Counted from the first letter of the stretch, positions 26,256 to 45,375 are shown. The stretch is DNA of 64,000 nt from Desulfosarcina sp. BuS5 (GCF_028752835.1 NZ_CP087952.1:2461041-2525040); one strand, 5' to 3'. The notes: generated from the sequence alone by a model not told the origin. Numbers and translations are program-made.

Positions 26256-27407
26256 TCAACCTTCAGCCGTCAACGCCAAAAACCGCCCCTTTGACCCCTC
26301 GGTTTGCAGGCTGGTAAATCTTTTGTCCCGCGCAAGCCTTTTAAAGATTGCCCTTTTAAATTCAGAGACGGTTCCCTTGTATTTTACCATCATTTCCGTA
26401 ATCCCCCCGGCGGAGCTTCTTTCCGTCAACGAAACCACCCGCGGGATCGATTCAACCGCGTCCTGAAATGCAAAAACCAGCCTGTCGGCGTTTTTCCCGG
26501 TTTTTAATCTGATTGTATACGGCAGCCCGTTGGCCGTATAATCCGCCCACCATGAAACAATGCCGTTTATCATGGGAGATGCAATATTTTCAGCAGCCCT
26601 GCGCGCGCCGTTTAAACATGCAATGTCCGCAGATTCCCCGATTCCGGATATGCTTTGTTCGTCTGCAAAAAGAATCTGCGCGGTGGTTGTTACAATCGCC
26701 TTTACCCGCATGGTAACCGAAGCTGTCTCCATCATCCCGTCAAATCCAGCCGGTTTTGCCTTGACCCCGTAAAGCAGCACGATTTCGGCATGATGCTCAA
26801 GCCCCAGCTTTGCCGCCGCATTGTTTATGGTGTCAGCCTTAAGCAGGCTTTTTGTATCATCATGCAGTTTTAAAGAGATGCCGGGATCGACCAGGTCAAA
26901 ATGCTTGCTGGTCAGGGTTTTTAAAAATACGCTCTCCGCCGCTCCGGCCGCATCTGTAACCTGTGCGTCAGGAGAGCAGATAACAAGAATCCTGGGATAA
27001 TCCATCATACACTTGTAAAGACCCAGCTTGATGAGCGTATCAACAAGAATACCAGGTTTTACCACGGCGCGTATCTTTACCCTGTAAAGACCGTTTTGCT
27101 CCCGGCGTTCTTTAATGATTTTATACCCGGTGATATATCCCCGGGCGCTTGTATAAATTTTTTCCATCAGCAGATCATCCTGCAAAATGGAATCAGCATC
27201 CATCAGCGTTCCCACCCCTTGTTCAACAGCCTTTCGCAAAGCGTCTTTTACGGCATTATTGCGCGCGCCTTCAATATTTTCTCCTGAAACAGGAGCCGCG
27301 CCATCCACAACAATTTCTTTTTCCTCCGACCATGCAAAAGGGGCAAACAAAAAAGCACAAACAAGAACAACTGATATAATTAAATGCCATTTAGATTTAG
27401 TTTTCAA
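26256..27407 (-). CDS. Exported FlgT/LPP20-like protein
   Basis: About 383 residues with a clear signal peptide ending near PFAWSEEKE. The segment ENIEGARNNAVKDALRKAVE followed by a predicted beta-rich domain (YRVKIRAVV) is characteristic of FlgT-N/LPP20-type outer-membrane assembly proteins. The middle resembles a CsgG/FlgT fold (VICSPDAQVTDA). The start is fixed at the TTG at 27407 by GAAGGAG; the ATG-less frame upstream is part of the heptad repeat TTGAAGG. It lies 23 bases after the FlgO/CsgG-like gene, in the same operon. No flagellar genes are nearby, so a non-flagellar role is likely. Confidence 0.75.
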   Translation of the reverse strand: MKTKSKWHLIISVVLVCAFLFAPFAWSEEKEIVVDGAAPVSGENIEGARNNAVKDALRKAVEQGVGTLMDADSILQDDLLMEKIYTSARGYITGYKIIKERREQNGLYRVKIRAVVKPGILVDTLIKLGLYKCMMDYPRILVICSPDAQVTDAAGAAESVFLKTLTSKHFDLVDPGISLKLHDDTKSLLKADTINNAAAKLGLEHHAEIVLLYGVKAKPAGFDGMMETASVTMRVKAIVTTTAQILFADEQSISGIGESADIACLNGARRAAENIASPMINGIVSWWADYTANGLPYTIRLKTGKNADRLVFAFQDAVESIPRVVSLTERSSAGGITEMMVKYKGTVSEFKRAIFKRLARDKRFTSLQTEGSKGRFLALTAEG

Positions 27408-27430
27408 TTTTTTCTCCTTCAACCTTCAAC

Positions 27431-28900
27431 CTAATAAACCTTTACAATGCATTCAGCCGCAGAACTCAGTTCAGCCTGACTGAAATTTTTGCCTGCCTGA
27501 TAAACCTTTATATCCCTGGTTCTGCCGCGTGTTAATGATGTAAAGGCCTGTTTATTAAAATCATCATCAAAAATATGTATCGGCCGGGTTCCTGCTACTG
27601 CATACACCCTCTCTTTTCCGGAAGGCCCTTCAACAAGGAACTCAAACCCATAGGTGTCATCCGGTATCCGGTGCGTAACGCCGGCCCTTACAAAATTATT
27701 CGAATGAAACCGGTTAGGAAATATTTGGGTAATATCACCGCTGCTGCCTATGTTAACAAGAACAAGATAACAATCCTTTTCAGAGCGGAAAGAAAAACAG
27801 ATCGGGTCATTTAGATTATATGAACTTTTATCTGTCCATAATTTAACATTAAAGTCCTGCTTTTTCCGGATCTCTTTATATTTTTGAAAAAATTTATTTT
27901 TCAGCGCAAAAAAAGGATCGTCTGTTTCAAGGTGAATCGCAATGGTCTGATTATTTGCAGGGTTAAAGGTTTCCAGCCTGCTGCCGTGTCCTTTAGCTTC
28001 AGCCACATAACTGCATTTTCCTGACTTTAGATCTGAAACCGTTGCATATCCCTGGGAGTTAAGCTTTATTTTTTTTCCATCAACTGTAAGTTTTGCATCA
28101 GGCGGCACAATCTGAAAAGATACGCTGTATCTCTTTGCTTCAAGCCTGACGGATACGGCCTCATTTGCCGACCGGACAATAATATTTTTATGAACCGGCG
28201 CATAGCCTTCCGGTTGAATAACAACCCGGCATTCGCCATAGGCAATGCCGCTGAAAACGGCGGTTCCATTTACAAGCCGCCCCTGTTTCCCCCCTGCAAT
28301 AACACTTCCGCCTGCCCGGGGAACAGTAGAAACAGTAAGAGTGGCGGTTTTTTGCCTGCGGATAAGGTTTTTTACAGATTCATCCTTTACGACACGCACA
28401 TCAGCAGCCCCCTGAATACGGCCGGTTTCGGATTGAACTATCCTGGCGGTAACATCAAGATAACTCTCCATGTCCTTGACAGTCCCTATGACCATGCTTT
28501 CAACCCCGATCATTTTACCGTATTTTGTCACGGTATTCTGATCAAAATATCCGCCCTGCTCTATTTTTATAGCAGATATGACCTGCTTTAATTTTTTACG
28601 CTCCATCACATCGGAAAATCTGCCGGATGCAAACAGCTTGATAGTCAGCTTGTCGGAAATATGCTCCCCAATTCCTGTAATATGTTCACCAGGGCCTGTA
28701 AAATCAGCCACAGCAATTTTATCGACCTGGCGCTGACCTAAAGACGTCACAAGTTTTTCACCAAGAACATCAACAGCCTCAAAAAGCTGTTTTGCCTGTG
28801 CGTATGCCGGTGGTTTTTTTGCGGCGCCGGGAACAGTCGCGCATCCTGAAAATGCCAGGATCAGGCATAATAAACCGGCAAGACAGAGCCTCTGGTTCAT
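27431..28900 (-). CDS. FlgO/CsgG-like lipoprotein with PEGA and DUF4384 domains
   Basis: A 489-residue lipoprotein (signal peptide, lipobox LAFSGCAT). Residues about 35-165 look like the FlgO/CsgG fold (KIAVADFTGPGEHITGIGEH, MIGVESMVIGTVKDM). Two PEGA-like beta domains follow (GYAPVHKNIIVRS, then VDGKKIKLNSQGYATVSDL). The C-terminal third is DUF4384-like (DKSSYNLNDPICFSFRS, GDITQIFPN). Proteins of this layout sit on the inner face of the outer membrane. The ATG has AAAAGGAG. It is the first gene of a two-gene operon with the FlgT-like protein and is divergent from ompA-like. Confidence 0.82.
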   Translation of the reverse strand: MNQRLCLAGLLCLILAFSGCATVPGAAKKPPAYAQAKQLFEAVDVLGEKLVTSLGQRQVDKIAVADFTGPGEHITGIGEHISDKLTIKLFASGRFSDVMERKKLKQVISAIKIEQGGYFDQNTVTKYGKMIGVESMVIGTVKDMESYLDVTARIVQSETGRIQGAADVRVVKDESVKNLIRRQKTATLTVSTVPRAGGSVIAGGKQGRLVNGTAVFSGIAYGECRVVIQPEGYAPVHKNIIVRSANEAVSVRLEAKRYSVSFQIVPPDAKLTVDGKKIKLNSQGYATVSDLKSGKCSYVAEAKGHGSRLETFNPANNQTIAIHLETDDPFFALKNKFFQKYKEIRKKQDFNVKLWTDKSSYNLNDPICFSFRSEKDCYLVLVNIGSSGDITQIFPNRFHSNNFVRAGVTHRIPDDTYGFEFLVEGPSGKERVYAVAGTRPIHIFDDDFNKQAFTSLTRGRTRDIKVYQAGKNFSQAELSSAAECIVKVY

Positions 28901-29226: not shown

Positions 29227-29811
29227 ATGATTCGTTTAATGATTGCCGTGGTTTCACTAACCGTATTAAGCGCTGTTTCCACAGCGGCCGAAGAAAAACC
29301 CCTGTTCCAGACAACAAAAGATGAAATCATAAAGGAGCTGACCCGGCCTGTTTCACGCACCAGGGGATTTATTCCGCAAGGCAAAACAAGGAATATTGTG
29401 GTTTATGAAAAGAAAAATACGGAAACCATAGAAAAAATCGTGGTGGTAAGCAGCAATGATAATACCCCAAAAGTTAATTTGAAAATAGAGTTTAATTTTA
29501 ATTCATACAGAATCCGGCCGGAATCATACAGCCTGCTCCGTGAACTTGGCAAGGCTCTTGCTGCCGAAAATATAAGCCGCAGAAACATTGCAATCAAGGG
29601 ACATACCGACTCGGACGGAACAGAGCGGTATAACCTTGGTTTAAGTCTGAACAGAGCGTTGTCTGTTAAACAGTATCTGACCGCTAATTTCAATATAAGC
29701 CCCGGCAAACTCAAAATTTTTGGGTATGGTGAAGCCATGCCCCTTGTATCCAACACAACCGCTGCAAATAAACAGATTAACAGACGGGTTGAAATTCAGC
29801 TTGAAAAATAG
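29227..29811 (+). CDS. OmpA-family peptidoglycan-binding protein
   Basis: A 194-residue exported protein. Signal peptide to about residue 21 (SAVSTAAEE). The C-terminal OmpA-like domain (about 80-194) has FNFNSYRIRPESYSLL, IKGHTDSDGTERYNLGLS with the peptidoglycan-binding Asp/Arg pair, and INRRVEIQL. There is no beta-barrel, so it is a periplasmic or lipoprotein-associated anchor. An AAAAAGGAG site precedes the ATG. Its neighbours suggest that it anchors the same envelope assembly. Confidence 0.88.
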   Translation: MIRLMIAVVSLTVLSAVSTAAEEKPLFQTTKDEIIKELTRPVSRTRGFIPQGKTRNIVVYEKKNTETIEKIVVVSSNDNTPKVNLKIEFNFNSYRIRPESYSLLRELGKALAAENISRRNIAIKGHTDSDGTERYNLGLSLNRALSVKQYLTANFNISPGKLKIFGYGEAMPLVSNTTAANKQINRRVEIQLEK

Positions 29812-29990: not shown

Positions 29991-32009
29991 ATGAAACAAA
30001 AAATATCCATATACATTCTGACTTTCTTCTGCATTCTGACAGTCTCTTTTCCCGCGTTTGCTTCATCAAGCAGGGTTGCCCTGATTATAGGAAACAGCGC
30101 CTACAAAAGCGCGCCCCTTGCCAACCCAGCCAATGACGCAACAGATATGGCAGTGGTTTTAAAACGTCTCAGCTTTGATGTAATAAAAAAGATAAACGCC
30201 GACAAAAGGCAGATGAAAAACGCGATCAACAAGTTTCACAAAGGGCTCCGCAACTCCGAAATCGGTCTTTTTTATTTTGCGGGCCACGGCATGCAGATAA
30301 ATAATGCAAACTATCTTGTGCCGGTCAATGCAGACATCGAATCAGAATTAGACGTGGAATATGAATCCATCCACGCCGGCCGTGTCCTGGGCAAGATGCG
30401 TGACGCCGGCAACCGGCTCAACATCGTAATCCTCGATGCCTGCCGCGACAATCCCTTTAAACGGAGTTTCCGGACAGAATCAAAAGGACTGGCCCAGATG
30501 GACGCGCCCAAAGGCTCCATCATAGTCTATGCAACCTCTCCAGGCTCTCTCGCGGAAGACGGAAATGGCCGGAACGGAACATACACCGGCAATCTGCTTA
30601 AAAATATCGAAAGAAGCGACCTTACCGTGCAGCAGGTCTTTAATGAAACCGGGCGGGGCGTTATGGCGCAGACCGATGACAAACAGGTTCCCTGGATGTC
30701 ATCCACTCCGGTGGCCGAGTTTTACCTTGCGGGCGGAAGCGTGATTGTCACCGAACCGCAAGCCTCTGATACAGGCAGCCTGAAGGTTAAATCCACTCCC
30801 CGTGGAGCGCGAATATACCTGAACGGAAAAAACCGGGGCGCCGCCCCAAAAACATTTTCAAACCTTGCGCCCGGCGCTTACAAAGTAAAAGCCGTACTCT
30901 CCGGTTACAACGCTGAAGAAAAAAGAATCCGCGTAAACAGCGGCCGCGCTGCAATTCTTACATTTTACCTTGACCCTGTGACATCTGCGGGTCGTTTATA
31001 TGTAAATACCGACCCATCCGGCGCAACTGTAAAGGTCCTGAATATTACTCCAGAATTTTATCAGGGCATGGAACTTGATGCCGGAACTTATAAAATTAAA
31101 GTCTTGAAAAAAGGATATATTTCAAAAACCGAGCTTGTCGATATTGCCGCGGGCAAAGCTGTTGATCTTTATGTGGAACTTGAAAAAGAAAAAAGAGTCT
31201 CAGCCGGAGAAAATTTTACCAACAGCATCGGCCAGGAGTTTGCGTATATCAAACCCGGCACATTTATGATGGGCAGCCCATCGAATGAATCAGGCAGGGA
31301 CGATAATGAAAAACAGCATGAAGTTACCCTGACCAGGGGATTTTATATGCAGACTACCGAGGTGACAATCGAACAATGGAAATCATTCGTAAAAGATACA
31401 GGCTATAAGTCTGAAGCGGAAACAGGTGGAGGCGCTTATATCTGGACAGGGAAAAAATGGCAAAAGAAAAAAGGGACATACTGGAACAATCCGGGATTTT
31501 CTCAAACAGATCGTCATCCTGTAACTTGTGTTTCATGGAACGATGCACAAAAATTTATCAAATGGCTGAACCGGAAAGAAGGCCGGGTTTACAGGCTGCC
31601 AACAGAGGCCGAGTGGGAATATGCCTGCCGGGCCGGAACTGCAACCCCGTTTTCATTCGGCAGATGTTTATCGACCGATCAGGCCAATTATAACGGTAAA
31701 TATCCTTTAGACGGATGTTCAAAGGGAAAATACAGAAAAAAGACAGTCTCTGTGGCAAGTTTTTCGCCCAATGCATGGGGACTTTATAACATGCACGGCA
31801 ATGTCTGTGAGTGGTGCCGGGACTGGTTCGGTAGCTATCCTTCAGGTTCCGTGACTGATCCGACAGAGCATTCAATGGGCTCTAGCCGGGTGGCCCGCGG
31901 CGGTAGCTGGTTCTGCAAAGCTCGCTTCTGCCGTTCAGCGTATCGTGGCTTCAATTTGCCGGGCTTCCGCTTCAGCGCCCAGGGCTTTCGCCTTTCCAGG
32001 ACCTTTTAG
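29991..32009 (+). CDS. Exported caspase-like protease with PEGA repeats and FGE-sulfatase domain
   Basis: A 672-residue exported protein. Signal peptide to about residue 25. A caspase/C14 domain (26-240) has both catalytic residues: His99 in YFAGHGMQI and Cys151 in ILDACRDNPF. Two PEGA domains follow (about 260-330 and 333-400). The C-terminal formylglycine-generating-enzyme-like domain (about 410-672) has PGTFMMGSPSNESG, RLPTEAEWEYACRAG and MHGNVCEWCRDW. FGE-type folds without the catalytic cysteines are often ligand-binding. The last 34 codons look hypervariable and are discussed separately. It lies 180 bases after the OmpA gene across a REP. Confidence 0.9.
   Translation: MKQKISIYILTFFCILTVSFPAFASSSRVALIIGNSAYKSAPLANPANDATDMAVVLKRLSFDVIKKINADKRQMKNAINKFHKGLRNSEIGLFYFAGHGMQINNANYLVPVNADIESELDVEYESIHAGRVLGKMRDAGNRLNIVILDACRDNPFKRSFRTESKGLAQMDAPKGSIIVYATSPGSLAEDGNGRNGTYTGNLLKNIERSDLTVQQVFNETGRGVMAQTDDKQVPWMSSTPVAEFYLAGGSVIVTEPQASDTGSLKVKSTPRGARIYLNGKNRGAAPKTFSNLAPGAYKVKAVLSGYNAEEKRIRVNSGRAAILTFYLDPVTSAGRLYVNTDPSGATVKVLNITPEFYQGMELDAGTYKIKVLKKGYISKTELVDIAAGKAVDLYVELEKEKRVSAGENFTNSIGQEFAYIKPGTFMMGSPSNESGRDDNEKQHEVTLTRGFYMQTTEVTIEQWKSFVKDTGYKSEAETGGGAYIWTGKKWQKKKGTYWNNPGFSQTDRHPVTCVSWNDAQKFIKWLNRKEGRVYRLPTEAEWEYACRAGTATPFSFGRCLSTDQANYNGKYPLDGCSKGKYRKKTVSVASFSPNAWGLYNMHGNVCEWCRDWFGSYPSGSVTDPTEHSMGSSRVARGGSWFCKARFCRSAYRGFNLPGFRFSAQGFRLSRTF
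31908..32009 (+). other. Candidate diversity-generating-retroelement variable region
   Basis: The 3' end of the caspase-FGE gene encodes RGGSWFCKARFCRSAYRGFN and then PGFRFSAQGFRL. DGR target proteins with this fold end in exactly this frame (RGGSW, RSAYR, GFRL), with variable positions between. Here five of the seven Phe codons are TTC while most Phe codons elsewhere in the gene are TTT. Variable positions are of the form NNC (TTC, TGC, GGC, AGC, GCC), as expected if template AAC codons were mutated. No template repeat or DGR reverse transcriptase is visible in this window. Confidence 0.45.
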
Positions 32010-33506: not shown

Positions 33507-34817
33507 ATGTTAAAAGAAAAACTCAAAATTATCATCAAGGAATTTCACGACACCCCGCTTCCTGATCTGATTGAACGGAATCAAAAAATCGATTTTTCCA
33601 TTCTTCAATCCCCTGTAAAAAAAATCATAACCATCATCGGCCCGCGGCGGGCAGGCAAAACATATTTTCTGTTCCAGATTATAAAAAAGCTGCTTGCCGG
33701 AAAAACCGATATAACCGACATACTCTATATTAATTTTGAAGATGAACGTATTTTGCCGATGAGCGCCAATGACTTTCAGCAGATTATGGATGCCTATTTT
33801 GAGCTGTACAAAGATAAACAGAGCCCGTTTATTTTTTTTGATGAGATTCAAAATATCAGCGGCTGGGAAAAATTTGCAAGAAGAATTAATGATCAGGGAT
33901 ACAGGGTTTTTCTTACCGGTTCAAATTCCCGGCTGCTCAGCCGTGAAATTGCAACGGAATTAAGAGGTCGTACCCTGGTGTATGAAATATTCCCCTTTTC
34001 TTTTATAGAATTTCTTGCGGCAAAAAGGGTAATCGTAAATAATAATATATTATACGGATCGGAAAGGCATCAAACACGACAACTCTTTGAAGAGTATCTT
34101 TTTACCGGAGGATATCCGGAAATTGTGTTTATAAAGGATAAAATTACAAAAAGCAGAATATTACAGGATTATTTTAACACTGTTTTTTACAAAGACCTCG
34201 TAGAGAGGTATAAAATCAAAAACAGGGAATTGCTGAGGCATTGGTTAAATGCCTTGATCATGAACATTTCATCGCTGGTGAGCTTCAGTAAAATTGAAAA
34301 CGATTTTAAATCAAGGGGCATGAAGCTTTCCCGGGCCACATTAAGCGCCTTTGCCCGATATATTGAAGATGTCTTTTTCGGTTTTTTCGTAGAAATCCAT
34401 TCCGAATCAATTCGAAAACGGCAGGTAAACCCAAAGAAATTTTATCTTATAGATCAGGGAATCCACAATTTCCTCACATTAAGTTTTGCTGAAAACAAGG
34501 GCCGTATTTTAGAAAACATGGTTTTTCTTGAATTAAAGAGAAGGGGGTTTCCTGTTTATTATTATAAAACAAAAGGAGGGCTGGAAGTCGATTTTCTGCT
34601 GACGGAAAACGGGAATAACAAACTTGTTCAAGTCTGTTATGATATGGCTCATATTAATACTTATAACCGTGAAAAAAAGGCTCTTCTTGCCGGAATCAGT
34701 GAACTGGGGCTTTCAACCGGCCTGATTTTGACCAAAGATGAGAAACGACTGGAAAAGCATGGCAATTATTTATTAAAAATTGTTCCGGTATGGGAGTGGC
34801 TGCTGAATTTGAAGTAA
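33507..34817 (+). CDS. DUF4143 AAA ATPase (second copy)
   Basis: A 436-residue ATPase with Walker A IIGPRRAGKTYF and Walker B FIFFDEIQNI. The middle has the sensor-like FLTGSNSRLLSREIATELRG. The C-terminal nuclease-like domain reads GGLEVDFLL but then VQVCYDM where active PD-(D/E)XK members have Glu-x-Lys, so any nuclease activity is probably lost. The copy at 25.0 kb keeps that triad. It stands alone. The family is often annotated as archaeal-type ATPase with unknown role. Confidence 0.85.
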   Translation: MLKEKLKIIIKEFHDTPLPDLIERNQKIDFSILQSPVKKIITIIGPRRAGKTYFLFQIIKKLLAGKTDITDILYINFEDERILPMSANDFQQIMDAYFELYKDKQSPFIFFDEIQNISGWEKFARRINDQGYRVFLTGSNSRLLSREIATELRGRTLVYEIFPFSFIEFLAAKRVIVNNNILYGSERHQTRQLFEEYLFTGGYPEIVFIKDKITKSRILQDYFNTVFYKDLVERYKIKNRELLRHWLNALIMNISSLVSFSKIENDFKSRGMKLSRATLSAFARYIEDVFFGFFVEIHSESIRKRQVNPKKFYLIDQGIHNFLTLSFAENKGRILENMVFLELKRRGFPVYYYKTKGGLEVDFLLTENGNNKLVQVCYDMAHINTYNREKKALLAGISELGLSTGLILTKDEKRLEKHGNYLLKIVPVWEWLLNLK

Positions 34818-35231: not shown

Positions 35232-36113
35232 ATGAAAAAAACAGTCTTTATTTTTGCAGTCTTTTTTCTTGTCAGCATGCCATCTTCAAGCTTTGCAGCC
35301 GAAGGAGTCGCTATCCAGCGGGTAATAACCAATACCCGGTCTGAGCTGGGCCAGCTTGCTTCATCGTCAAAAGCCCGTAACATCACAGAACTTATGAAAA
35401 AATTCGACACGCAATATGAAACCTGGAGCAGTTCCTGCGGGGGAGGGGAAAATTTTGATCCGGCAAATGTCAGCGATGCCTGCAAATCCATGGCATCCCA
35501 GATGCGTGAAACCGGCATACTGCTTTACGGCAATCTATCCGGATACCTGCCTGATGTAGCGGCAAGATATGAACAAGGCGCCAAATCCGCCAACCGCATT
35601 ATTAATAAAAAAGCAGCCGGTCAAACACCTGCTGCTCTTTACCGGGCAGCCATGGACGGAGCAGCCCGGGCTCCAAGGCTTGGAAGTCTTTCCAGTCAAA
35701 ACGCCGAAAGTCCGTTTGATTTGGAAACGGATAATTTTATCGATCCAACTGAACAGATGTTTTCCGTTCTGGAAAAACTTGTGCCTGATTTCGGCAAAGA
35801 GCTTCCTGAAGTGGTAAGAGCGGGAAGCGCTCAGGTAACCATGATGAAAAAGGCAAAACGGGCCCGGTACCTGGCGGAAAAATTTGAAAAGGCAAAATTT
35901 ATTCTGGAATCCCAGCGTGAATACGGCGACATCATTTTTAATGCCACAAACGCTGTCAGCGCAATGCCGCAGGTGCTTGGTTTGCAGTACACCGGCGCCG
36001 GTCTGTCAGCCAGGCCGAATGCTAAAGTAATAGAATATTATCGCAAAAAAAATGCGCCCGCATCACCGGCTGTAAAAGAAAAAAAAATCGGCGGATTTAA
36101 ACCAAGAACATAA
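35232..36113 (+). CDS. Exported protein of unknown function, first gene of the envelope operon
   Basis: A 293-residue protein with a signal peptide ending near SSSFAAEG. The mature part is helical, has an N-terminal cysteine pair (SSSCGGGE, SDACKSM) that could form a disulfide, and a basic helical segment (MMKKAKRARYLAEKFEKAKF). No known domain is recognised. The ATG has AAGGAG. It is followed at 36 bases by a lipoprotein and then by the TolQ/ExbD-like pair, so it is probably periplasmic and part of the same assembly. Confidence 0.7.
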   Translation: MKKTVFIFAVFFLVSMPSSSFAAEGVAIQRVITNTRSELGQLASSSKARNITELMKKFDTQYETWSSSCGGGENFDPANVSDACKSMASQMRETGILLYGNLSGYLPDVAARYEQGAKSANRIINKKAAGQTPAALYRAAMDGAARAPRLGSLSSQNAESPFDLETDNFIDPTEQMFSVLEKLVPDFGKELPEVVRAGSAQVTMMKKAKRARYLAEKFEKAKFILESQREYGDIIFNATNAVSAMPQVLGLQYTGAGLSARPNAKVIEYYRKKNAPASPAVKEKKIGGFKPRT

Positions 36114-36149
36114 TTCATGGCCATGTTTCAGACAAGGAGGATTAATATA

Positions 36150-36710
36150 ATGAAAAAGGCAACAATGCTTATCGCATCAATTATCTGCATCTTTGCTTCA
36201 GGATGCGCAAACATGCACAACAAGGCTAATACGTCAGCTATCACACAGCAGCCCTTAACCATGATTTCACAAATCGATTCCTTTAAACCGGAAATCGCCT
36301 GCAGCCAGGCGCTTGAGGTAGTAAACAGCAATCCTTACGGCCAGGAATTCTTTGAAAAGATTTTTGCAAAGCTTGTCGAGCAAAGCAAAAACAGCGCAGC
36401 GCCTGAAAATGCCGACCTTATCTGGGACAATTTTGTGTCGCCGTTAAATCAGACCGGCAAGGTGCCGCCGGATTTGGTAAAAAATCTGTGGAATTCTTAT
36501 TTTTCAGCGCAATTTGTAAGCCTGCCTGCTGTAGATTCAGTAGAGCAGTGCTGTCACAAGCTGATTGATATAAAAAAGAATATTGAAAAGGAATACAGAC
36601 TCAAGCAACAAGGTTTTGCGGCATGCAAACAGGGTAATCCGGATACTCATTTTTTAAACGCCATGTATGTTTACAATACTATCTGGGCGGTTTGCAACGA
36701 AGTTGATTAG
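36150..36710 (+). CDS. Lipoprotein of unknown function
   Basis: A 186-residue lipoprotein (signal peptide MKKATMLIASIICIF, then ASGC). The start at 36150 is decided by AAGGAGG at 36134-36140; an in-frame ATG at 36117 has none. The mature part is helical with several cysteines (SVEQCCHKL, FAACKQG, IWAVCNE), so disulfides are likely. No family is recognised. It is followed by a REP-A/REP-B insertion that separates it from the next gene. Confidence 0.7.
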   Translation: MKKATMLIASIICIFASGCANMHNKANTSAITQQPLTMISQIDSFKPEIACSQALEVVNSNPYGQEFFEKIFAKLVEQSKNSAAPENADLIWDNFVSPLNQTGKVPPDLVKNLWNSYFSAQFVSLPAVDSVEQCCHKLIDIKKNIEKEYRLKQQGFAACKQGNPDTHFLNAMYVYNTIWAVCNEVD

Positions 36711-36716
36711 CTTTTT

Positions 36717-36783
36717 GGTGGATTCGCTTCGCTTAATCCATCCTACTATAACGGGTTCCCACGCAGAAGCATGGGAACCAGGG
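36717..36783. repeat. REP-A unit followed by a REP-B-like hairpin
   Basis: REP-A at 36717-36746 and a REP-B-like hairpin (GGTTCCCACGCAGAAGCATG) at about 36752-36780. They lie inside the envelope operon, between its second and third genes. Confidence 0.8.
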
Positions 36784-36842
36784 GATGAACGGGAACATGG
36801 GACCACAGGCAACCTCTTCCGATGTATAGCATGGAGAATTGA

Positions 36843-37457
36843 ATGAAAACCCTGTTTGCCATAATTATATCATCCGCTCTTGCTGCTGTTATCTGCCTGG
36901 CGCTTGTTTCAACAGGCATTATCAGTTTTAAAAAAAATGATGCGGAACCGTTGAAAACGGAAATCAAAAAAGCGGAAGCTGTTTTTCACAAGGTTCAGGA
37001 TATTATGCCAAAAATACCGCCTGAAAAAACGCCTGAAACTTTGCCTGAACCTTTGCCTGAAACAGGCATACAAGATATTATTTTTAATAAAGTAACTGCG
37101 TTTTTGCAGTCTGCTATTGAAAATGGGACGGCTGACATTGAAGATCAGTTCAAAAAATTTTTAAAAGAAGAGCAAAAGCTTGATGAAAAAAGCGTTCAAA
37201 AATTTTTAAAAATGAGCTTCTGGAAAAATTTCGTCACCCTGCAGAATATTAAAGAAACTGATGATTACGATAAAATCCGCCTGGAATTTGCCAGGGAAAT
37301 GGAGCTGAAAAAAGCCGGGTTTGCCGCAAAAGGGATAGTTCTTATGAAGAGCGAAATTGAATCGGCTGAAAAAGAGCTTGAGACAAGGTTGAAGGTGGAA
37401 GGTGGGAAGATAGAAGGTGAGAAGGTGGAAGGTAGAAGATTGAAGGTAGAAGATTGA
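36843..37457 (+). CDS. Bitopic membrane protein with a repeat-encoded tail
   Basis: A 204-residue protein with one N-terminal membrane segment (about 5-28), a proline-rich spacer (EKTPETLPEPLPETG) and a helical domain. The last 24 residues (LKVEGGKIEGEKVEGRRLKV) are translated heptad repeats of the GAAGGTG type, so the natural C-terminus probably lay near residue 180. Length changes in the repeat could alter or frameshift the tail. It precedes the TolQ-like gene and probably works with it. No known domain. Confidence 0.65.
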   Translation: MKTLFAIIISSALAAVICLALVSTGIISFKKNDAEPLKTEIKKAEAVFHKVQDIMPKIPPEKTPETLPEPLPETGIQDIIFNKVTAFLQSAIENGTADIEDQFKKFLKEEQKLDEKSVQKFLKMSFWKNFVTLQNIKETDDYDKIRLEFAREMELKKAGFAAKGIVLMKSEIESAEKELETRLKVEGGKIEGEKVEGRRLKVED

Positions 37458-37480
37458 AGATGGGAAGGTGGGAAGGTGGT
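37384..37480 (+). repeat. Degenerate GAAGGTG heptad array within coding sequence
   Basis: About a dozen imperfect units of GAAGGTG/GAAGATT run across the end of one gene and the start of the next. They form the C-terminal tail of the 36843 protein and supply the ribosome-binding site (GGAAGGTGG) of the TolQ-like gene. The same heptads recur at 26245-26272, 27410-27432, 35064-35099, 38003-38030, 40900-40918 and 22707-22720. Confidence 0.8.
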
Positions 37481-38017
37481 ATGAAATCAATATTTACTAT
37501 TTTAATTCTTTCAATATTCTGGAGCTTTTTGTTTGTCTGTGCCGGGATTTTCAGCGGTATGATTACGATTACTGCATCCCCGGACTGGCTGCTCCATCCC
37601 CTCGCTGCATTGTACCGGCATCTTAAGTTATCTATTGTTCCTTTTGGGGCGCTTTTTGTTCTCTATTTTTATCTGATCAACAAGATTCGAAGCGAACTCG
37701 GCAAAGAAAATTCTGTTCTTTCACGGCTTACATTTTATGACCGCCTGCTTAACACAACCATTTCCATGTTCTTCGGCGTGGGCGTTATATGGACGGCCAT
37801 AGGTATGGAAACCGCGCTTATGAACGCCCTTGACGGCACAGGCGCTTCAACCGACATGACAGCCCAGGGGGTTCTGAAAAATCTTGTCAACGGAGGGCTT
37901 CTTCTGGCTCTTAGCACGACTGTTTTCGGAGGCGCATGCGGATATATGCTGCGGCTTTTAAAAATTGTTTTTATCGGCAGGAACTGGGACAAGGTTATTC
38001 TTAAGGTTGAAGGTTGA
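37481..38017 (+). CDS. TolQ/ExbB/MotA-like membrane protein (divergent)
   Basis: A 178-residue protein with four membrane segments (about 4-30, 42-62, 86-106, 122-150). The last two are rich in Gly/Ala/Thr (FGVGVIWTAIGMETALMNAL, then LALSTTVFGGACGYMLRLL) as in the proton-channel helices of TolQ/ExbB/MotA, and end in a basic cytoplasmic stretch. The similarity is weak and I rely on pattern and on the ExbD-like neighbour. The ATG at 37481 has a repeat-derived GGAAGGTGG. It would form the ion-driven motor of the operon. Confidence 0.55.
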   Translation: MKSIFTILILSIFWSFLFVCAGIFSGMITITASPDWLLHPLAALYRHLKLSIVPFGALFVLYFYLINKIRSELGKENSVLSRLTFYDRLLNTTISMFFGVGVIWTAIGMETALMNALDGTGASTDMTAQGVLKNLVNGGLLLALSTTVFGGACGYMLRLLKIVFIGRNWDKVILKVEG

Positions 38018-38039
38018 AGGTGGAAGGGGGGGTAAACCT

Positions 38040-38822
38040 GTGAATAAAGCAGCGCTGCTTTGCGGTGATTCCAGCCAGGACGACCAGGTTCTGGAAACTG
38101 ACATTATGCGGTTTATGGCAATTATCGGGATTATTTTCTGGATAATTTTTTCCATGATCAAAAGCATGCCCTTTAAGGCTGCGGAAACATTTCCTGAAGA
38201 AAAAAGCGTATCTATTCAAATGCCGGAGCCGGTAAATCTTCAAAAACAAAAACCTGTTATAAAAACAGAAAAAAAGCCGGGACATAGAATAGAATCCGTA
38301 CCGGAACCCCTGCAAAAGGCTGAAATGTTTGCGCAAACCAAAACCGATAAACTACCGCTGAAAGATAAACAGCCCATGCAAAAGGGTGTGTTCATGCAGT
38401 TTCAAAGCCGCCGGGATCTGCTTTTTCTGATGGCAAAAGGCAAAGCGCGGATTTTCTGCCGCGCCCGGGCAAAGGGGTTTGATCTTTTTTTCGAGGGCTT
38501 CCCCATGGAAGATGCGGTGGTTTTCAAGAGTGTTTCAAACATTCCCGCAAGCCTGTGGGAGATTAAAACCGGGAAAGACAGAGACTATTTTATCGATATT
38601 ATAAGAAGATCATTTCCTGCTCTGCGTTCTTTTACCGACCGCCGGGTAATGGTCTCTTTTACGGATCAGGAACTTGAAAACCGTGTTATCAGTGAATTAA
38701 GCCGGCTGCAAAAAGAGTTGCGCAATGGAATTTTATCAATCAACGCCGGAGGCGAGGTGATCTTTTCCGGCTTTGAAACCGGACAGGACGCCGAAAAAAC
38801 CATAGTTGAAGGAGGGAAATAA
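38040..38822 (+). CDS. ExbD/TolR-like single-span protein
   Basis: A 260-residue protein with a short cytoplasmic N-terminus, then ETDIMRFMAIIGIIFWIIFS, a membrane segment with an Asp at its entry as in ExbD/TolR-type partners. A proline- and lysine-rich periplasmic linker follows (about 60-115), and then a globular domain with a central SRRDLLFLMAKGKARIFC. The start is a GTG at 38040 with GGAAGGGGGG. It overlaps the transglycosylase start by one base. Together with the TolQ-like gene it suggests a proton-driven pair. Assignment is by context and pattern. Confidence 0.55.
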   Translation: MNKAALLCGDSSQDDQVLETDIMRFMAIIGIIFWIIFSMIKSMPFKAAETFPEEKSVSIQMPEPVNLQKQKPVIKTEKKPGHRIESVPEPLQKAEMFAQTKTDKLPLKDKQPMQKGVFMQFQSRRDLLFLMAKGKARIFCRARAKGFDLFFEGFPMEDAVVFKSVSNIPASLWEIKTGKDRDYFIDIIRRSFPALRSFTDRRVMVSFTDQELENRVISELSRLQKELRNGILSINAGGEVIFSGFETGQDAEKTIVEGGK

Positions 38823-39631
38823 TGAAGACCGTTAAAAATATTATATTTTACTTATGCCTGCCGCTTCTAATTTCAGGGTTCGGGCAGGCTGACGCGGCAA
38901 TCCCGCCGGACCGGCTAATCAGCGCCGACTTGAAAGCGCTCTTTGCAGACCCGCCTTCCGTCAAAGGGTATCCGTATCAGGAGCTTTTTAAAAAGGCCGC
39001 GCAGCGTTACGGACTTCCCCTTCCTTATCTGCTCGCGGTTGCCCGCGGAGAGTCATTTTTTGACCCCAATGCCGTAAGTTCCAAAGGCGCCATCGGGCTT
39101 ATGCAGGTTATGCCCGCCACAGCCGGTGATTACGGCGTTAAAAAAGAAAAACTTTTCGATCCTGCCGAAAATATCGATACAGGAGCCCATCTTCTTTCCG
39201 ATTTGAACACACGGCTGAATGACCCATACCTTGCGCTTGCCGCCTATTATTGCGGGCAGGGAGGCGTGGATATTGATAATTTTACAATAAGAGAAGATTG
39301 CAATGAATATGTTCATTATATCCATTCGCATCTGGAAAAAATTTTAAAAAAAGCCGGACAGCATCTTCCTGATTCCGCTGTCATGGAAAAGCATTTTGTT
39401 TTAACGGTGTTTGACAATTTTCTTGATGCCCAGTCTTTTGTAAAATTTTTATCAGAAAAACTGCCCCTGATGCAGTTTGAGATATTTCGCAAAGAAGCGG
39501 CTTTGCAAGACCATAACCGTTATCAGTATCAGATCATGGCTGCTATCAGCGGCAAAAAAACAAAGAATGAAGTCTGCGCCATGGTTGAAAAGGCAAGCGG
39601 TTTTTCCTTCTGCGACGGCAAAGGAGAGTAA
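38822..39631 (+). CDS. Lytic transglycosylase (SLT family 1) with SPOR-like tail
   Basis: A 269-residue exported enzyme. Signal peptide to about residue 26. SLT domain (about 52-165) with catalytic Glu77 in VARGESFFDP, then SKGAIGLMQVMPATA and ALAAYYCGQGGVD. The last 75 residues (VLTVFDNFLDAQSFVKFLSE) have the alpha/beta pattern of SPOR-type peptidoglycan-binding domains. It cleaves the glycan strand to 1,6-anhydro ends. Within the operon it would open the murein layer for the apparatus. It overlaps the ExbD-like gene by one base. Confidence 0.87.
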   Translation: MKTVKNIIFYLCLPLLISGFGQADAAIPPDRLISADLKALFADPPSVKGYPYQELFKKAAQRYGLPLPYLLAVARGESFFDPNAVSSKGAIGLMQVMPATAGDYGVKKEKLFDPAENIDTGAHLLSDLNTRLNDPYLALAAYYCGQGGVDIDNFTIREDCNEYVHYIHSHLEKILKKAGQHLPDSAVMEKHFVLTVFDNFLDAQSFVKFLSEKLPLMQFEIFRKEAALQDHNRYQYQIMAAISGKKTKNEVCAMVEKASGFSFCDGKGE

Positions 39632-39634
39632 AAA

Positions 39635-40888
39635 ATGAAGACGATATTTAAAACAATTCTGTTTTTGATAATGGTTGCTACTCTAAATAGCTGCGCAGGT
39701 CTGTCCGGAGCCGTAAAACCTCAGGAGCCTGACAGGTTAAACAGCGTTGTGCCTGAGGCTTTTCATTTCAACATTCATGATAAAACCATCCGTAATTATC
39801 TTGCCGAAACCGAACCTGACCGATTTCCCCCAAACTGCCAATCAGAACGCAGGCTGGAAATTATTCTGTTGGCAGGCCTTGCGGAGGCAAAGGACGAAGA
39901 AGATCTTGCGAGGGTTTTTGACAATCTATGGCAAAAGCATGAAAAAATCAGGGAACTTATTAACAATCCCCAACAACGGGCCGATCTTGTCAGGCCGACA
40001 GCAGAAATTTATTATCTCCTGTCGGCAATTCCGGGAGCCGACTGGCGGCATGAAACCGCCGGCCGGATTTATACCGAAACATTAAAGGATATAAACCCGG
40101 AGCAGCTTTCAGGTTATGCCCTTCATTTTTACACGCTTGCGCTTTTAAAAAACGGAAAATCCAATACCGCCCTGCCCTTTCTGCTGCGGCTCAAAGGTTT
40201 TGCCGAACCTGCTGCATATCTGAAGGATTTAAGCATTGCTCTTTCCTTTGCGATTGAAGGCAAAGACTATTCAACCGCTGTTAAAATCATGGAGCAGGTA
40301 TGCAGGTTTGACCTGCAAAACAATCTGAAATTTCCTGATCAGCAAATGTATGACGCAGTCAAAGCAATGAAAGCTTCAGGAAAACTATCTTTGGCTCAAA
40401 TAGCGCTCGCACCGCTCATTAAAGAGAATCCCGGCCTTGAAACCTTTCAGTTTGCAAAACTGCTTAGCAAAAAAGCTGTTTTTGTAAATAAACAAAAACA
40501 CGCGGCACAAAAAAAAATTATCATAAAAGCGCAGGTCATAGAAGCAGGGCAAGACTCGAAGCATATCGACATAAAGCTAACAGGAGCAGTTGAGAGCCTG
40601 AAAAAAACACTCAACTATTCAAGCTTCAAGCTGATCAGCGAAAAAACATTTTATCTTCACACCGGCCAAACAGGAAAAATGCCGCTGTTAAAAGGCAGCA
40701 GACTTAAAATTACACCTCAAAAGATTACTTCCAAAACCGCTGTAATCGAAATTTTTATCACACAGGAAAGTAAAGAAATTTTTAACACAGTTATTGAAAC
40801 CATTAACAAAGGGGCAGCCATAATAGGCGGCCCGAAAACAGGGAGCAAAATTATTCTGATTAGATTGGTTACGGATATTTTGTTGTGA
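39635..40888 (+). CDS. Lipoprotein with a conserved C-terminal beta domain
   Basis: A 417-residue lipoprotein (signal peptide, lipobox ATLNSCAG). The N-terminal two thirds are helical with a TPR-like look (YALHFYTLALLKNGKSNTAL). The C-terminal 120 residues are a beta-type domain (KIIIKAQVIEAGQDSKHIDI to IIGGPKTGSKIILIRLV). That domain recurs as a relic after the ECF sigma factor at 22.4 kb. It starts three bases after the transglycosylase. A scaffold role in the outer membrane is inference. Confidence 0.65.
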   Translation: MKTIFKTILFLIMVATLNSCAGLSGAVKPQEPDRLNSVVPEAFHFNIHDKTIRNYLAETEPDRFPPNCQSERRLEIILLAGLAEAKDEEDLARVFDNLWQKHEKIRELINNPQQRADLVRPTAEIYYLLSAIPGADWRHETAGRIYTETLKDINPEQLSGYALHFYTLALLKNGKSNTALPFLLRLKGFAEPAAYLKDLSIALSFAIEGKDYSTAVKIMEQVCRFDLQNNLKFPDQQMYDAVKAMKASGKLSLAQIALAPLIKENPGLETFQFAKLLSKKAVFVNKQKHAAQKKIIIKAQVIEAGQDSKHIDIKLTGAVESLKKTLNYSSFKLISEKTFYLHTGQTGKMPLLKGSRLKITPQKITSKTAVIEIFITQESKEIFNTVIETINKGAAIIGGPKTGSKIILIRLVTDILL

Positions 40889-40994
40889 TAAATTAATAGG
40901 TAGAAAGGTGGAAGGTTTTTGTGAAAAATGTATATTTTTAACTTTTCGTGTTTTCGTACTTTCGTGTTTTCGTGATAAAAAAAGGAGAGTAGCA

Positions 40995-42521
40995 ATGAAA
41001 AAACGCACATCATTTTTAATCTTATTCGCAGCATCTTTTCTCTTAACAGGCATGTTTCCCGTTTATGCGCAGGAGCCCGGCGCCGGTGAAAAGGCTGCTG
41101 TTTCCGCAGAAGCGCAGGAGTGGCAGGTGCTGGCAACCTCCCCGGGTGTGAAAGTACTCAGCCAGGTCGTGCACAGCCCCGGCAAAATTCTCGAACAAGG
41201 TGAAAATCCCCTGGAAACAGCCCAGGACTGGCTGACAGACAAAAATCTGGAAGAAGGCCGGAATTTAAAAAATAAAAAGCTGCTTTATATCAGTATCGGC
41301 GCTGCAACAATCAATGCCAGGCCGGAAGATCCAGGTTTTATAGACAGCCGGTTTCTTGCGTTTCAGAGGGCGGAGCTTGAGGCAAAGGCAAAAACAGCAA
41401 TATTCCTCGGCGCTGATCTTACAACCTCAAGAGGCGCTTCGGAAAGGGAAATCAACCCTGAAGAACGGGCGGCCATGGAAGATATTATAAATACAAGTTC
41501 CGGGCTTAAAAAAACTACAAAAGCCATGAATATTGCCGGCTCTATCTCCGAGCTGTTTGAAAAATCCAAAACCTTGATAAACGCAAAGCTTGATAAGGCC
41601 ATCAGGGAAACAGATGAAACTTCCGATCAGGAGCGACAAGAGGAACTCAAACGTAAAAGAGCCGCTGCAAAATCGAAAGCCAAAAAAAGAAACCGCCTGA
41701 GAAATATCAGCGAAACATCCATGAAAGCCGCTGCATGCGCCTTTACCGAGGTGCAGGGTTCCCAGGTGATCCAGTCCTTTGAAGGCTCCTATCATAAAAA
41801 CTATCAGGTTGTTGTTATTACCCTCTGGTCTCAAAACCTGCAGAAAATGGTGGACAGCATGCTTTCCGGCAGCGCGCCCTATGGGCTTGAAGGGAAAAAA
41901 GCCAAAACCGAAATTACAAGTCAACTGCCGAAAGATTCCAACAAACTGGCCTGCATGTCCGGCGTCCGGGCATATATTAACCAGCACGGCGAGCATGTGC
42001 TGCTTGCGTTTGGCCAGGCCGGAGTTGAAGTAATAGGCGGCAGGGAAGACAAAGCCTATGAAAAGGCCGGGAAAAAGGCCAGACTGCGCGCACTTGCCTC
42101 AATGCGCACGTTCATGGGCGAAAAGGTGGCTTTTGTTGCAAATGAAGAGCTTGCCGAAGCCCTTGCCCTGTATGCTGACGAGTATAAAGGAGGCGAAGGA
42201 TCGCAGGAATACAAATCCATCAGTCAATTCCAGGAAAAAATCCGCGCCGTGTCAGTCAGGCAGAAACTCACCGGCGCACACGGCCTTTTAACCAAAGAGC
42301 TTATTCATCCATTCACGAACAAACCGATGGTATTAAAAATAATGGCATGGTCTCCGTCATCCCAGAAAATGGCAAAAGATATTAAACAGGCTATTGAATA
42401 TAAGCCTGAACATTCATACGGCCGGAAGAGGAAAGAGGCGGCTGCTGTTGAAAAACAAGAGGTGATTAAACGTAAAGGCGTTATCTCGTCCGGTGATGGG
42501 GCTGATTCGGATGCCTGGTAG
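40995..42521 (+). CDS. Large exported protein of unknown function, last gene of the envelope operon
   Basis: A 508-residue protein with a signal peptide ending near FPVYAQEP. The start at 40995 is decided by AAAGGAG. Recognisable features: FLAFQRAELEAKAKTAIFLG, resembling the LPP20/FlgT-type opening; a basic region (LKRKRAAAKSKAKKRNRLR, about 218-236); and a duplicated alpha/beta unit (QVVVITLWSQNLQKMVDSML and HVLLAFGQAGVEVIGG). The tail is lysine-rich. No family name is certain. A repeat block (40938-40982) lies between it and the lipoprotein upstream. Confidence 0.65.
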   Translation: MKKRTSFLILFAASFLLTGMFPVYAQEPGAGEKAAVSAEAQEWQVLATSPGVKVLSQVVHSPGKILEQGENPLETAQDWLTDKNLEEGRNLKNKKLLYISIGAATINARPEDPGFIDSRFLAFQRAELEAKAKTAIFLGADLTTSRGASEREINPEERAAMEDIINTSSGLKKTTKAMNIAGSISELFEKSKTLINAKLDKAIRETDETSDQERQEELKRKRAAAKSKAKKRNRLRNISETSMKAAACAFTEVQGSQVIQSFEGSYHKNYQVVVITLWSQNLQKMVDSMLSGSAPYGLEGKKAKTEITSQLPKDSNKLACMSGVRAYINQHGEHVLLAFGQAGVEVIGGREDKAYEKAGKKARLRALASMRTFMGEKVAFVANEELAEALALYADEYKGGEGSQEYKSISQFQEKIRAVSVRQKLTGAHGLLTKELIHPFTNKPMVLKIMAWSPSSQKMAKDIKQAIEYKPEHSYGRKRKEAAAVEKQEVIKRKGVISSGDGADSDAW

Positions 42522-42605
42522 GGAATAGGTGGAAGGCTTAAGGGGTATGCATTCCCACGCTGGAGCGTGGGAATGAGGATTATTTTGGCTGGAAAAGGAT
42601 TACAT
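42522..42605. repeat. REP-B unit and IS target site
   Basis: A REP-B hairpin (GCATTCCCACGCTGGAGCGT, then GGGAATG) lies at about 42547-42573. It is followed by the ACAT at 42602-42605 that is duplicated on the other side of the IS. Confidence 0.85.
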
Positions 42606-44252
42606 AGTATCTGCTGAATTTCTTTTTTATGAAAGAAATGCTTTGCTATCCATAGCAGTATATGCCATTTTTTAAATTGCAGCTAAATGGTATTTTAAGC
42701 ACTCTAAAAAGGATAGGAGGTATTCTGATGATAAAAAATACTTTTGAAGAAGTTCTTTCTGATGAATGGGTGAAAGCAAATATAACCAATCCAGTTCAGG
42801 AATTGGTTATTATCCGTGGGATAATTCCATGGCAAAAAATGATTACAAAGTTGTGTAAATTTTATAACACCAGTCAGGGTGCTTTTGGAAAATCTCTCAG
42901 GATGATGACAGCGATTTTGATTTGTATAAAATACTATCAATTAAGTGATAGGCAAATGGTTAAGCATATAAAAGAAAACCACTATATTCAATATTTTTGT
43001 AACATCACAAATGAGGAATTGCAAACATGCCTGGATCCGAGTTCTATATGTGTATTTCGAAAACGTATAGGTGAAGAAGGTGTTGAAATTATAGAAAAAG
43101 AAGTTTTTGAGGTTCTACGCAAAGCTGGGATAATACAGGGTGATAATGCTATGATAGATTCAAGCGTATTGAAAAATAACGTTATCTATCCAAATGATGT
43201 ACATTTAATTTTTAAAGCTTTTGACAAAATGAAACAATTTGCCGTTTTGCATCAAATCTCCTTGTGGTGGGACAATAATGAAGTAAAAAAATTATGGCGA
43301 GAATTTTTTTTGAACAAAAAACAAAACCGTTTGGAATGGTTACTCAAATTTAATATATTATTTATTCCTGCTCTAAAAATATTTGATAAAAAAGTTGAAT
43401 CATTAAAGACCACAAAGAAAAAACAAATAAAAGCTGACAATATGTTTGCTATTCTTACTATTCTTGAAGCACAAACCTTAGAAAAACTCGAAGGTAAAAA
43501 ACAGATAAAAAACCGGATTGTATCCATTGATGAACCGGATGCCCGCCCGATTGTAAAAGGAAAAGAGCATCCGAAGTGTGAATTCGGCACAACAATGGAA
43601 ATGACTTTCAATAGGGAAGGATTCATGATTACCATTGAAAATTTTATCGGTAATCCAAATGATAAAACGCTTTTTGCTGGAACACTCGAACAGTTCAAAA
43701 AACGGATGAAAGGCGAACCGGAAAATATTATTACCGACCTTGGTTACAGAAGCAATGGTAATTTTAAAATTGCAGACAATATCAGTAACGTTTTTTTGGG
43801 GCGTAAAAAAGATGTATCCGAAGAAAAACAGAGTTTTTGCTGTAAAGCCCGTTCAGCAACAGAAGGTTTCATAGCTATTGCAAAAAATATTAGAGGTTTT
43901 GGATGCAGTCTTTATAGAGGATTTGAAGGAGACCGTATATGGTCATTGCTTTGTCAAACCGCTTATAATCTTAAAAAGTTTATTCAGCTTCTAATGGGAG
44001 AAAAGATTGAAGAAAAAAAACTGATGAAACTCGGGCTGGCATAAGCCGAACAAGGATTTTATCAAAAATAGTTGATTTTAAAAAATATGCGGATAGGAGA
44101 GGTGCGTCTATAGGTGTTAACAATTTGCCGTTTTTTACCAAAATTCAATTAAAATACCACAAATGAGCTTAAAATTTTAGATTAAAATTCTCTATGATTA
44201 ATATATGAACAATGCTGATATACTATGTTATTATCGAAATTCAGCGGATACT
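42606..44252 (+). mobile_element. Complete 1647-bp insertion sequence (DDE, IS1182/ISNCY-like)
   Basis: Terminal inverted repeats AGTATCTGCTGAATTTC at 42606-42622 and GAAATTCAGCGGATACT at 44236-44252, with one mismatch. They are flanked by a perfect 4-bp target duplication ACAT (42602-42605 and 44253-44256). The element has one transposase gene. Intact ends and duplication indicate a recent insertion. The target was the 3' part of a RAYT-type transposase unit. Confidence 0.93.
42728..44044 (+). CDS. DDE transposase
   Basis: A 438-residue transposase. The catalytic acidic residues are likely Asp in AMIDSSVLKNNV, Asp in ITDLGYRSNGNF, and Glu in SATEGFIAIAKN. The middle has SIDEPDARPIVKGKEHPKCE, as in ISNCY/IS1182-type enzymes. 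I start at the ATG at 42728, which has AGGAGG; the open frame begins further upstream. It is intact and probably active. It may also mobilise the 199-bp element at 15.4 kb. Confidence 0.88.
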   Translation: MIKNTFEEVLSDEWVKANITNPVQELVIIRGIIPWQKMITKLCKFYNTSQGAFGKSLRMMTAILICIKYYQLSDRQMVKHIKENHYIQYFCNITNEELQTCLDPSSICVFRKRIGEEGVEIIEKEVFEVLRKAGIIQGDNAMIDSSVLKNNVIYPNDVHLIFKAFDKMKQFAVLHQISLWWDNNEVKKLWREFFLNKKQNRLEWLLKFNILFIPALKIFDKKVESLKTTKKKQIKADNMFAILTILEAQTLEKLEGKKQIKNRIVSIDEPDARPIVKGKEHPKCEFGTTMEMTFNREGFMITIENFIGNPNDKTLFAGTLEQFKKRMKGEPENIITDLGYRSNGNFKIADNISNVFLGRKKDVSEEKQSFCCKARSATEGFIAIAKNIRGFGCSLYRGFEGDRIWSLLCQTAYNLKKFIQLLMGEKIEEKKLMKLGLA

Positions 44253-44500
44253 ACATAATCGGAAAAAGTAGGCAAAAGAACAGGGTACATGCCAGGGATT
44301 TGGTTTGCTATTGGTCTGCAATTGAGCTTGGAATCTCTATGGCGGATTTAGCCAAAAGATTTGGGTTAACACTCTCGGCAGTGAGTTACGCAGTAAAAAG
44401 GGGAGAGGAAATAGCAAAAAAGGCGATTATCTACTGGAGGATTAAGTTATTGGATTATTTAAGGACGTCCCTGAAACTCGTCCCAGTTCTCACGTTCTAA
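44253..44500 (+). pseudogene. 3' relic of a second REP-associated transposase
   Basis: The frame after the IS reads KNRVHARDLVCYWSAIELG, ISMADLAKRFGLTLSAVSYA and VKRGEEIAKK. This is the C-terminal helix-turn-helix of larger Y1 (IS200-like) REP-associated transposases. The catalytic N-terminal part is absent on the other side of the IS (only a REP-B unit is there). It ends at a block (44455-44473) that is the complement of the REP-B leader, followed by REP-B. It probably once served the REP-B family. Confidence 0.75.
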
Positions 44501-44563
44501 TCATTTCTACGCTCCCGCGTGGGAACGAGTGAAAAAAACCAAACATTAAAAGGAGGAAACCGC

Positions 44564-44662
44564 CATGCGCTTTTTCAATACGGCCGGTCCTGTTGTTCCC
44601 AATGACCATTACTGTTTATCTCCATTAAACAGGTTTAATCTGAAAGTTTGTAGGGTGGATTA
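44564..44662 (+). pseudogene. 5' stub of an AAA-type ATPase gene cut by REP-A/RAYT
   Basis: A strong AAAAGGAGG is followed by MRFFNTAGPVVPNDHYCLSP, the N-terminus of a family of ATP-binding proteins that continue into a Walker A loop (from memory of the family). After about 29 codons the frame enters the REP-A at 44650 and stops. No remainder is found after the RAYT gene. Confidence 0.7.
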
Positions 44663-44679
44663 AGCGAAGCGAATCCACC
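44650..44679. repeat. REP-A unit upstream of RAYT
   Basis: GTAGGGTGGATTAAGCGAAG followed by CGAATCCACC, 38 bases before the RAYT start. It matches the copy at 45319-45348 exactly. Confidence 0.92.
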
Positions 44680-44717
44680 GAAAACCGATCCGCCAAACAA
44701 AAAACGAAATACATGCT

Positions 44718-45236: not shown

Positions 45237-45253
45237 TGGAAAAGTGAAGATTT

Positions 45254-45348: not shown

Positions 45349-45375
45349 GAAAACTCTATATGGAGAAGGAAAAGT

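Follow-up and report, generated by a model that had tools for sequence, protein, structure and literature searches.

A divergent ion-motor-like gene pair, probably of a new branch, in a conserved envelope operon of Desulfosarcina sp. BuS5 with its own lytic transglycosylase and recurrent caspase neighbours

To our knowledge, the ion-driven stator engine has only a handful of uses: flagella, the Tol system, the Ton system, gliding together with type IX secretion, and Zorya. An operon in the 4.2 Mb genome of Desulfosarcina sp. BuS5 raises the question whether a further engine of this kind exists that has escaped recognition, and what it would drive. The operon was noticed in a stretch of 64,000 nt (from here: the window; NZ_CP087952.1:2461041-2525040, positions counted from its first letter). 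A reading of the nucleotide sequence alone (from here: the original prediction) had interpreted positions 35232-42521 as seven envelope genes, among them divergent partners resembling TolQ/ExbB and ExbD/TolR and a murein hydrolase, and had proposed an ion-driven trans-envelope apparatus. Here we investigated whether this gene set is conserved, what its products resemble and which alternative readings have to be considered.

The interval 35232-42521 contains eight genes instead of the seven originally counted, here named A to H, all of them on the plus strand. The predicted short or overlapping junctions were confirmed, with distances ranging from -1 (an overlap of 1 nt between E and F) to about 130 nt (between B and C). 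Gene A (35232..36113) encodes a secreted, helical protein of 293 aa, gene B (36150..36710) an outer-membrane-type lipoprotein of 186 aa with the lipobox ASGC, and gene C (36843..37457) a protein of 204 aa with a single N-terminal membrane segment. These are followed by D (37481..38017), a four-helix membrane protein of 178 aa, by E (38040..38822, 260 aa) and by F (38822..39631), a secreted lytic transglycosylase of 269 aa. The last two genes are G (39635..40888), encoding a lipoprotein of 417 aa, and H (40995..42521), encoding a secreted protein of 508 aa. On direct reading, signal peptides were found in A, F and H, lipoboxes in B and G, and membrane segments in the other three products, with four in D and a single one each in C and E; hence, the expectation that every product carries one of these envelope signals holds for all eight genes. 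A terminator-like hairpin of 11 pairs, seven of them GC, is located immediately 3′ of H (42550..42575, plus strand) and is the strongest in the region. It is followed by a cluster of mobile elements (42662-48865) consisting of a DUF772/DDE transposase (42662-44044), a Y1 (IS200-like) transposase (44718-45236) and a group II intron-type reverse transcriptase on the minus strand (47480-48865). The same genome harbours a decayed second copy of A-B-C-D at about 2078.0-2079.7 kb (G000:C1; loci L002 and L038), in which A is split into two pieces, B and C are open and D is truncated, with a transposase reading frame close by.

When 84,980 species genomes were scanned with the D alignment, 68 D loci were obtained in Desulfobacterota and Gammaproteobacteria, and dozens of marine and sediment bacteria are carriers. 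They include Halieaceae, Chromatiales, Exilibacterium and tubeworm symbionts; the named relatives of the window's genome are Desulfobacterales and 'Deltaproteobacteria' bins, and D relatives within the order share 37-94% identity. About 70 loci of the two groups possess A, B, D and E as a set, nearly always accompanied by F. In 53 of 54 testable loci A is located directly upstream of D on the same strand, B lies upstream of D within the spacing limit in 54 of 60, E follows D directly in 57 of 60, and an F-family gene is found at most 5.2 kb from D in 44 of 52. The order is rearranged in Halieaceae and Exilibacterium, where the F side now lies upstream of A and the same genes stay together. All eight genes were found in the exact order A to H in a genome of another family of the same phylum (G174, locus L150), where a divergent caspase gene adjoins the set. 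Gene order is therefore kept far outside this genome, as the original prediction demanded. In a comparison with the nearest relative (L039), C had a dN/dS ratio of 0.75; for A, B, D, E and F the ratios were 0.12-0.24. The low ratios of these five genes and the retention of the gene set in about 70 loci argue against a chance arrangement; the operon is real and conserved.

The loci fall into two clades with a long branch between them. The window's clade possesses C (in 9 loci, plus L150), G and H. In the other clade E is followed by a lipoprotein with a DUF4384 domain (c3), and its gammaproteobacterial members have an additional protein (c4) with an F-like tail. The system is rare: a sample of 395 genomes from the phylum contained four carriers, and the gammaproteobacterial sample of 369 contained six. 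Searches of viral contigs and of plasmids found no relatives, and a phage or plasmid origin was rejected on this basis.

By sequence alone, neither D nor E had a significant match in Pfam, NCBIfam, PHROGs, PADLOC or the PDB sequences. Against PF01618 (MotA_ExbB) D reached 12.6 bits (E 0.12), below the gathering cut-off of 22.9; two weak matches, the best with E 0.12, were obtained among the 59 D relatives, and D is absent from the genome's own PF01618 matches. The AlphaFold2 model of D, based on 59 sequences and of moderate confidence (pLDDT 76), predicts helices at residues 3-24, 40-73, 80-118 and 128-177. When this model was compared with the PDB using Foldseek, the top five places, at weak E-values of 0.6-1.1, were taken by two ZorA proteins, type I (probability 0.97) and type II, and by three chains of ExbB; TolQ came next. 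With VIA-align, 120-139 residues were aligned to TolQ, ExbB and ZorA at Z scores of 9-10, and the alignment with PomA extended along all of D (residues 1-178). As a Z score of 10 is also obtained with unrelated helical bundles, each of these structure scores is weak when taken alone. What count are the crowding of motor subunits in the top Foldseek places and the sequence register. In a profile alignment with the TolQ/ExbB proteins of the same order, WTAIGM of D corresponds to GTVxG and ALSTTxxGG to ALxTxxxGL; the score of 25.1 was attained by none of 100 local shuffles (15.0 ± 2.7). The aligned threonine motifs, characteristic of the MotA/TolQ/ExbB family, are located in the last two membrane helices (TM3/TM4), with T105 invariant and T146/T147 conserved in at least 90%. 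Judged from the alignment, D has no ExbB-like transmembrane glutamate. A motor fold of D is probable. The predicted TolQ/ExbB likeness of this protein agrees with its best PDB matches, but it stayed below the Pfam cut-off and became visible through structure prediction.

Several features of the D-E pair are informative with regard to its topology. The loop between helices 2 and 3 of D comprises about six residues; the cytoplasmic domain that TolQ and MotA possess is therefore missing from D. The D and E reading frames overlap by 4 bp in most loci and form a single frame of 544 aa in L062, which fits a cytoplasmic location of both ends at the junction, as in TolQ/TolR. Canonical MotA/TolQ/ExbB and ExbD/TolR genes exist elsewhere in the same genome; hence, D-E is an additional system.

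For E, the AlphaFold2 model predicts a membrane helix at residues 12-42, then, up to about residue 112, a linker that is disordered or coiled, and a periplasmic domain at 113-245 with pLDDT values mostly above 90. All 51 sequences have Asp21, Met23, Arg24 and Phe25 (motif D21-x-M23-R24-F25) where the helix begins on the cytoplasmic side. E thus shares with ExbD/TolR a single N-terminal transmembrane helix with a conserved aspartate near its cytoplasmic end, at a position that we take to be that of the ion-binding aspartate in ExbD, TolR, MotB and ZorB. Arg24, three residues further on, is unusual. The periplasmic domain matched nothing in the PDB with Foldseek or VIA (best Z 3.6), neither ExbD nor OmpA, and E had no match in Pfam, PF02472 included. 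In profile alignments with ExbD, neither the whole protein nor the transmembrane segment scored above shuffles; the C-terminal domain by itself scored weakly above 60 shuffles, which was not taken as proof. Since the periplasmic domain resembles neither ExbD nor OmpA, the term ExbD/TolR partner describes an analogy of architecture: E resembles the central subunit of a motor in its layout, and membership in the ExbD/TolR family is not established. Of the original assignment, the membrane helix with its invariant aspartate stands, but not the periplasmic domain.

Among the remaining products, F is an SLT lytic transglycosylase as predicted, matching PF01464 with an E-value of 2.4e-28 (98.5 bits, cut-off 21.3). 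The tail described as SPOR-like is not recognised as such; Pfam found no SPOR domain in the C-terminal tail domain of F, nor in the gammaproteobacterial F1/F2 proteins. This tail recurs in c4, the second operon protein of the gammaproteobacterial relatives. A, B, C and G, like E, belong to no Pfam, NCBIfam or PHROG family. The cysteines C69 and C84 of A are invariant (46/46), and the lipobox cysteine Cys19 of B was found in 50 of 50 sequences. H belongs to a DUF6844-containing family; the window's copy stays below the cut-off, and the ortholog in G174 (L150) matches at 5.5e-7 (30.1 bits, cut-off 27). In L041 (5130-7310) G and H are joined in one frame of 727 aa, which supports a functional link between them. 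None of A, B, C, G and H matched TolA, TolB or Pal in Pfam. A relationship of c3 to G or H was rejected, as no profile match was obtained; the only feature that c3 has in common with the window's CsgG-type protein is DUF4384. The neighbours c5 and c9 were excluded, being of histidine-kinase type or spurious frames. In many gammaproteobacterial loci the second F-type gene is followed by a gene for a small secreted protein that resembles glycine-zipper proteins (c6, e.g. L084:14510-14905); it had no Pfam match and is possibly a further operon member.

Upstream of the operon we noticed an association that was not part of the original prediction. A secreted protein with caspase (C14), PEGA and FGE-sulfatase domains and an intact GHG/DAC dyad (29991..32009, plus strand) is encoded 3.2 kb upstream and represents one of the three caspases in the genome. 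Secreted caspase-fold proteins with intact His/Cys dyads, often with DUF4384 at their end, adjoin the operon in several separate Desulfobacterota lineages (the window, L045, L058/L060/L086/L091/L053, L079, L150 and L151) and on one gammaproteobacterial contig (L047). At this locus are found all three caspases of genomes G528 and G899, both of G903 and three of the four of G902. Caspases without the DAC motif carry DTC in its place, and a reading of these as pseudo-caspases was rejected for this reason. The genomes of L043 and L103 have no caspase at all and most gammaproteobacterial operon copies have none nearby, which makes the caspases a recurrent accessory and not a core component. This association of caspases and DUF4384 with the operon is newly seen here.

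The CsgG/FlgO, FlgT-like and OmpA neighbours named in the original prediction are real. They comprise a CsgG/FlgO-like lipoprotein with DUF4384, the domain also found in c3 (27431..28900, minus strand), a secreted FlgT_N-like protein with a PF16548 match slightly under the cut-off (26259..27422, minus strand; 1.9e-6) and an OmpA-domain protein (29227..29811, plus strand); OmpA genes follow the operon in other Desulfobacterota, too. Several caspase-linked loci also possess an OmpA gene and a sigma-factor/zf-HC2 pair. In L058, L060, L086 and L091 two genes directly upstream of A, one for a sigma-70-like protein of 250 aa and one for an anti-sigma-like membrane protein of 198 aa with zf-HC2, point to control by an envelope signal. 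Between the window's caspase and the operon, an AAA ATPase/DUF4143-type protein (33507-34814) matched the PADLOC candidate defence family PDC-S01 (2.7e-110); small HicA-like and ribbon-helix-helix-like genes are located just before it (32614 and 33011).

Reviews list MotAB, ExbBD, TolQR, AglRQS and GldLM as ion motors (PMC9389320), and a 2025 survey by Puente-Lelievre et al. describes heterogeneous non-flagellar MotAB relatives ('GIT', generic ion transporters) besides Zorya (PMC12505986). The best structural match of D is ZorA of the Zorya system (PDB 8vvn, 8vvi, 8qyd), and ZorAB likewise is an operon pair of a multi-helix protein and a single-helix protein with a transmembrane Asp. In contrast to ZorA, D ends with helix 128-177 and lacks the long cytoplasmic tail, E lacks the OmpA-like domain and the partners of D-E are envelope proteins; no ZorC, ZorD or ZorE genes were found beside D, and PADLOC was negative for D and E. 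With TolQR/ExbBD (PF01618/PF02472) the pair shares the probable fold of D helices 2-4, the Thr motifs, the Asp of E and envelope-spanning partners. It differs in that D and E score below the Pfam cut-offs, D has an extra first helix and no cytoplasmic hairpin domain, E carries another periplasmic domain and the operon contains no TolA/TonB, TolB or Pal. MotAB/PomAB resemble the pair in the four-helix topology of D and the whole-length alignment of D with PomA, but D has no torque-generating cytoplasmic domain and E no OmpA-like domain. AglRQS and GldLM are similar as ion motors that drive periplasmic or outer-membrane machinery (PMC9389320); they were set apart by their partner genes, no homologous ones being recognised here. 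The GIT proteins are likewise non-flagellar MotAB relatives with diverse added parts, but are Exb/Tol-like in sequence, while D is unrecognisable by Pfam (PMC12505986). The original prediction knew of no described system of this composition, and our search of the open literature (outside subscription journals and preprints) found none. Within the ion-motor superfamily, D-E probably represents a new branch that has partners of its own, so far without names.

On balance, we favour a divergent, small ion-driven stator unit formed by D and E that powers a trans-envelope complex to which a dedicated wall hydrolase belongs. D would be the multi-helix ring subunit in the inner membrane, of the MotA/TolQ/ExbB/ZorA kind but with one more helix at the N-terminus and hardly any cytoplasmic loop, and E the central single-helix subunit, perhaps in a 5:2 assembly. 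Asp21 would carry the ion, and the long periplasmic arm of E would have a new domain at its end. The passage of ions through D might turn or displace E, whose arm could then exert force on a periplasmic or outer-membrane complex formed by A together with the lipoproteins B and G. In the window's clade C and H may also belong to this complex, and in the other clade c3 could take the place of G. The transglycosylase F may open the wall locally for the complex to pass or to be remodelled. In many Desulfobacterota the machine would be equipped with secreted caspases, OmpA proteins and the sigma/anti-sigma pair, an outfit more suggestive of an envelope response that can be switched than of housekeeping. 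Interaction of the machine with the caspases, in either direction, is conjectural; that the D-E motor gates, loads or activates them in the periplasm through shared DUF4384-containing lipoproteins, and so couples a switch for stress or death to the proton gradient, appears quite doubtful.

The ZorA match and the caspases could also be read as a machine for defence or self-killing, in which D-E senses envelope damage, as is thought for ZorAB, and releases or activates the secreted caspases, while F and the lipoproteins execute or sense. The intact caspase dyads beside the operon in several lineages, the concentration of all caspases of G528 and G899 at this locus, the sporadic spread of the system, the decayed second copy and the surrounding mobile elements would suit such a machine. 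It is nevertheless unlikely, given that ZorC/D/E-like effectors, the long ZorA tail, PADLOC matches for D or E and relatives in viral contigs or plasmids were all missing from our searches and that most gammaproteobacterial copies lack a caspase.

Two further readings dispense with ion flow or with a motor altogether. A stationary envelope scaffold, or a complex for the assembly of a secretion system or appendage in which D and E are structural, would agree with the CsgG/FlgO, FlgT-like and OmpA neighbours, the DUF4384/CsgG-type lipoproteins and the missing ExbB-like glutamate of D; yet the invariant Asp of E and the TM3/TM4 threonines of D occupy the ion-path positions of known motors, and we regard this reading as improbable. 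A cassette for programmed lysis, with D as holin-like protein, F as endolysin and B and E as spanin-like proteins, has still less to commend it. An SLT enzyme indeed adjoins small membrane proteins with caspases close by, and weak matches to a holin family were obtained for 4 of the 59 D relatives (the best at 4.3e-5). However, in L084, the sole member for which the position was seen, the match covers only the poorly conserved first helix (residues 5-35), whereas the conservation of D sits in TM3-TM4; moreover, E possesses a folded domain of 130 residues, and viral contigs contained no relatives.

If the stator reading is true, profile searches would be shown to overlook a portion of the superfamily, namely a branch invisible at the sequence level that has conserved partners of its own and a wall hydrolase encoded in the operon. 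The cultivable carriers Desulfobacter latus, Exilibacterium tricleocarpae and Seongchinamella sediminis would then open its task to deletion studies, and the caspase linkage would provide a first genetic handle on the role of secreted bacterial caspases.

Elsewhere in the window, positions 52359-56861 encode a 1501-aa protein that combines an LCAT/alpha-beta hydrolase region with an Ig-like and a VWA domain, and a reading frame of 1407 aa (17565-21785) is followed by an ECF-sigma-like one (21871-22461).
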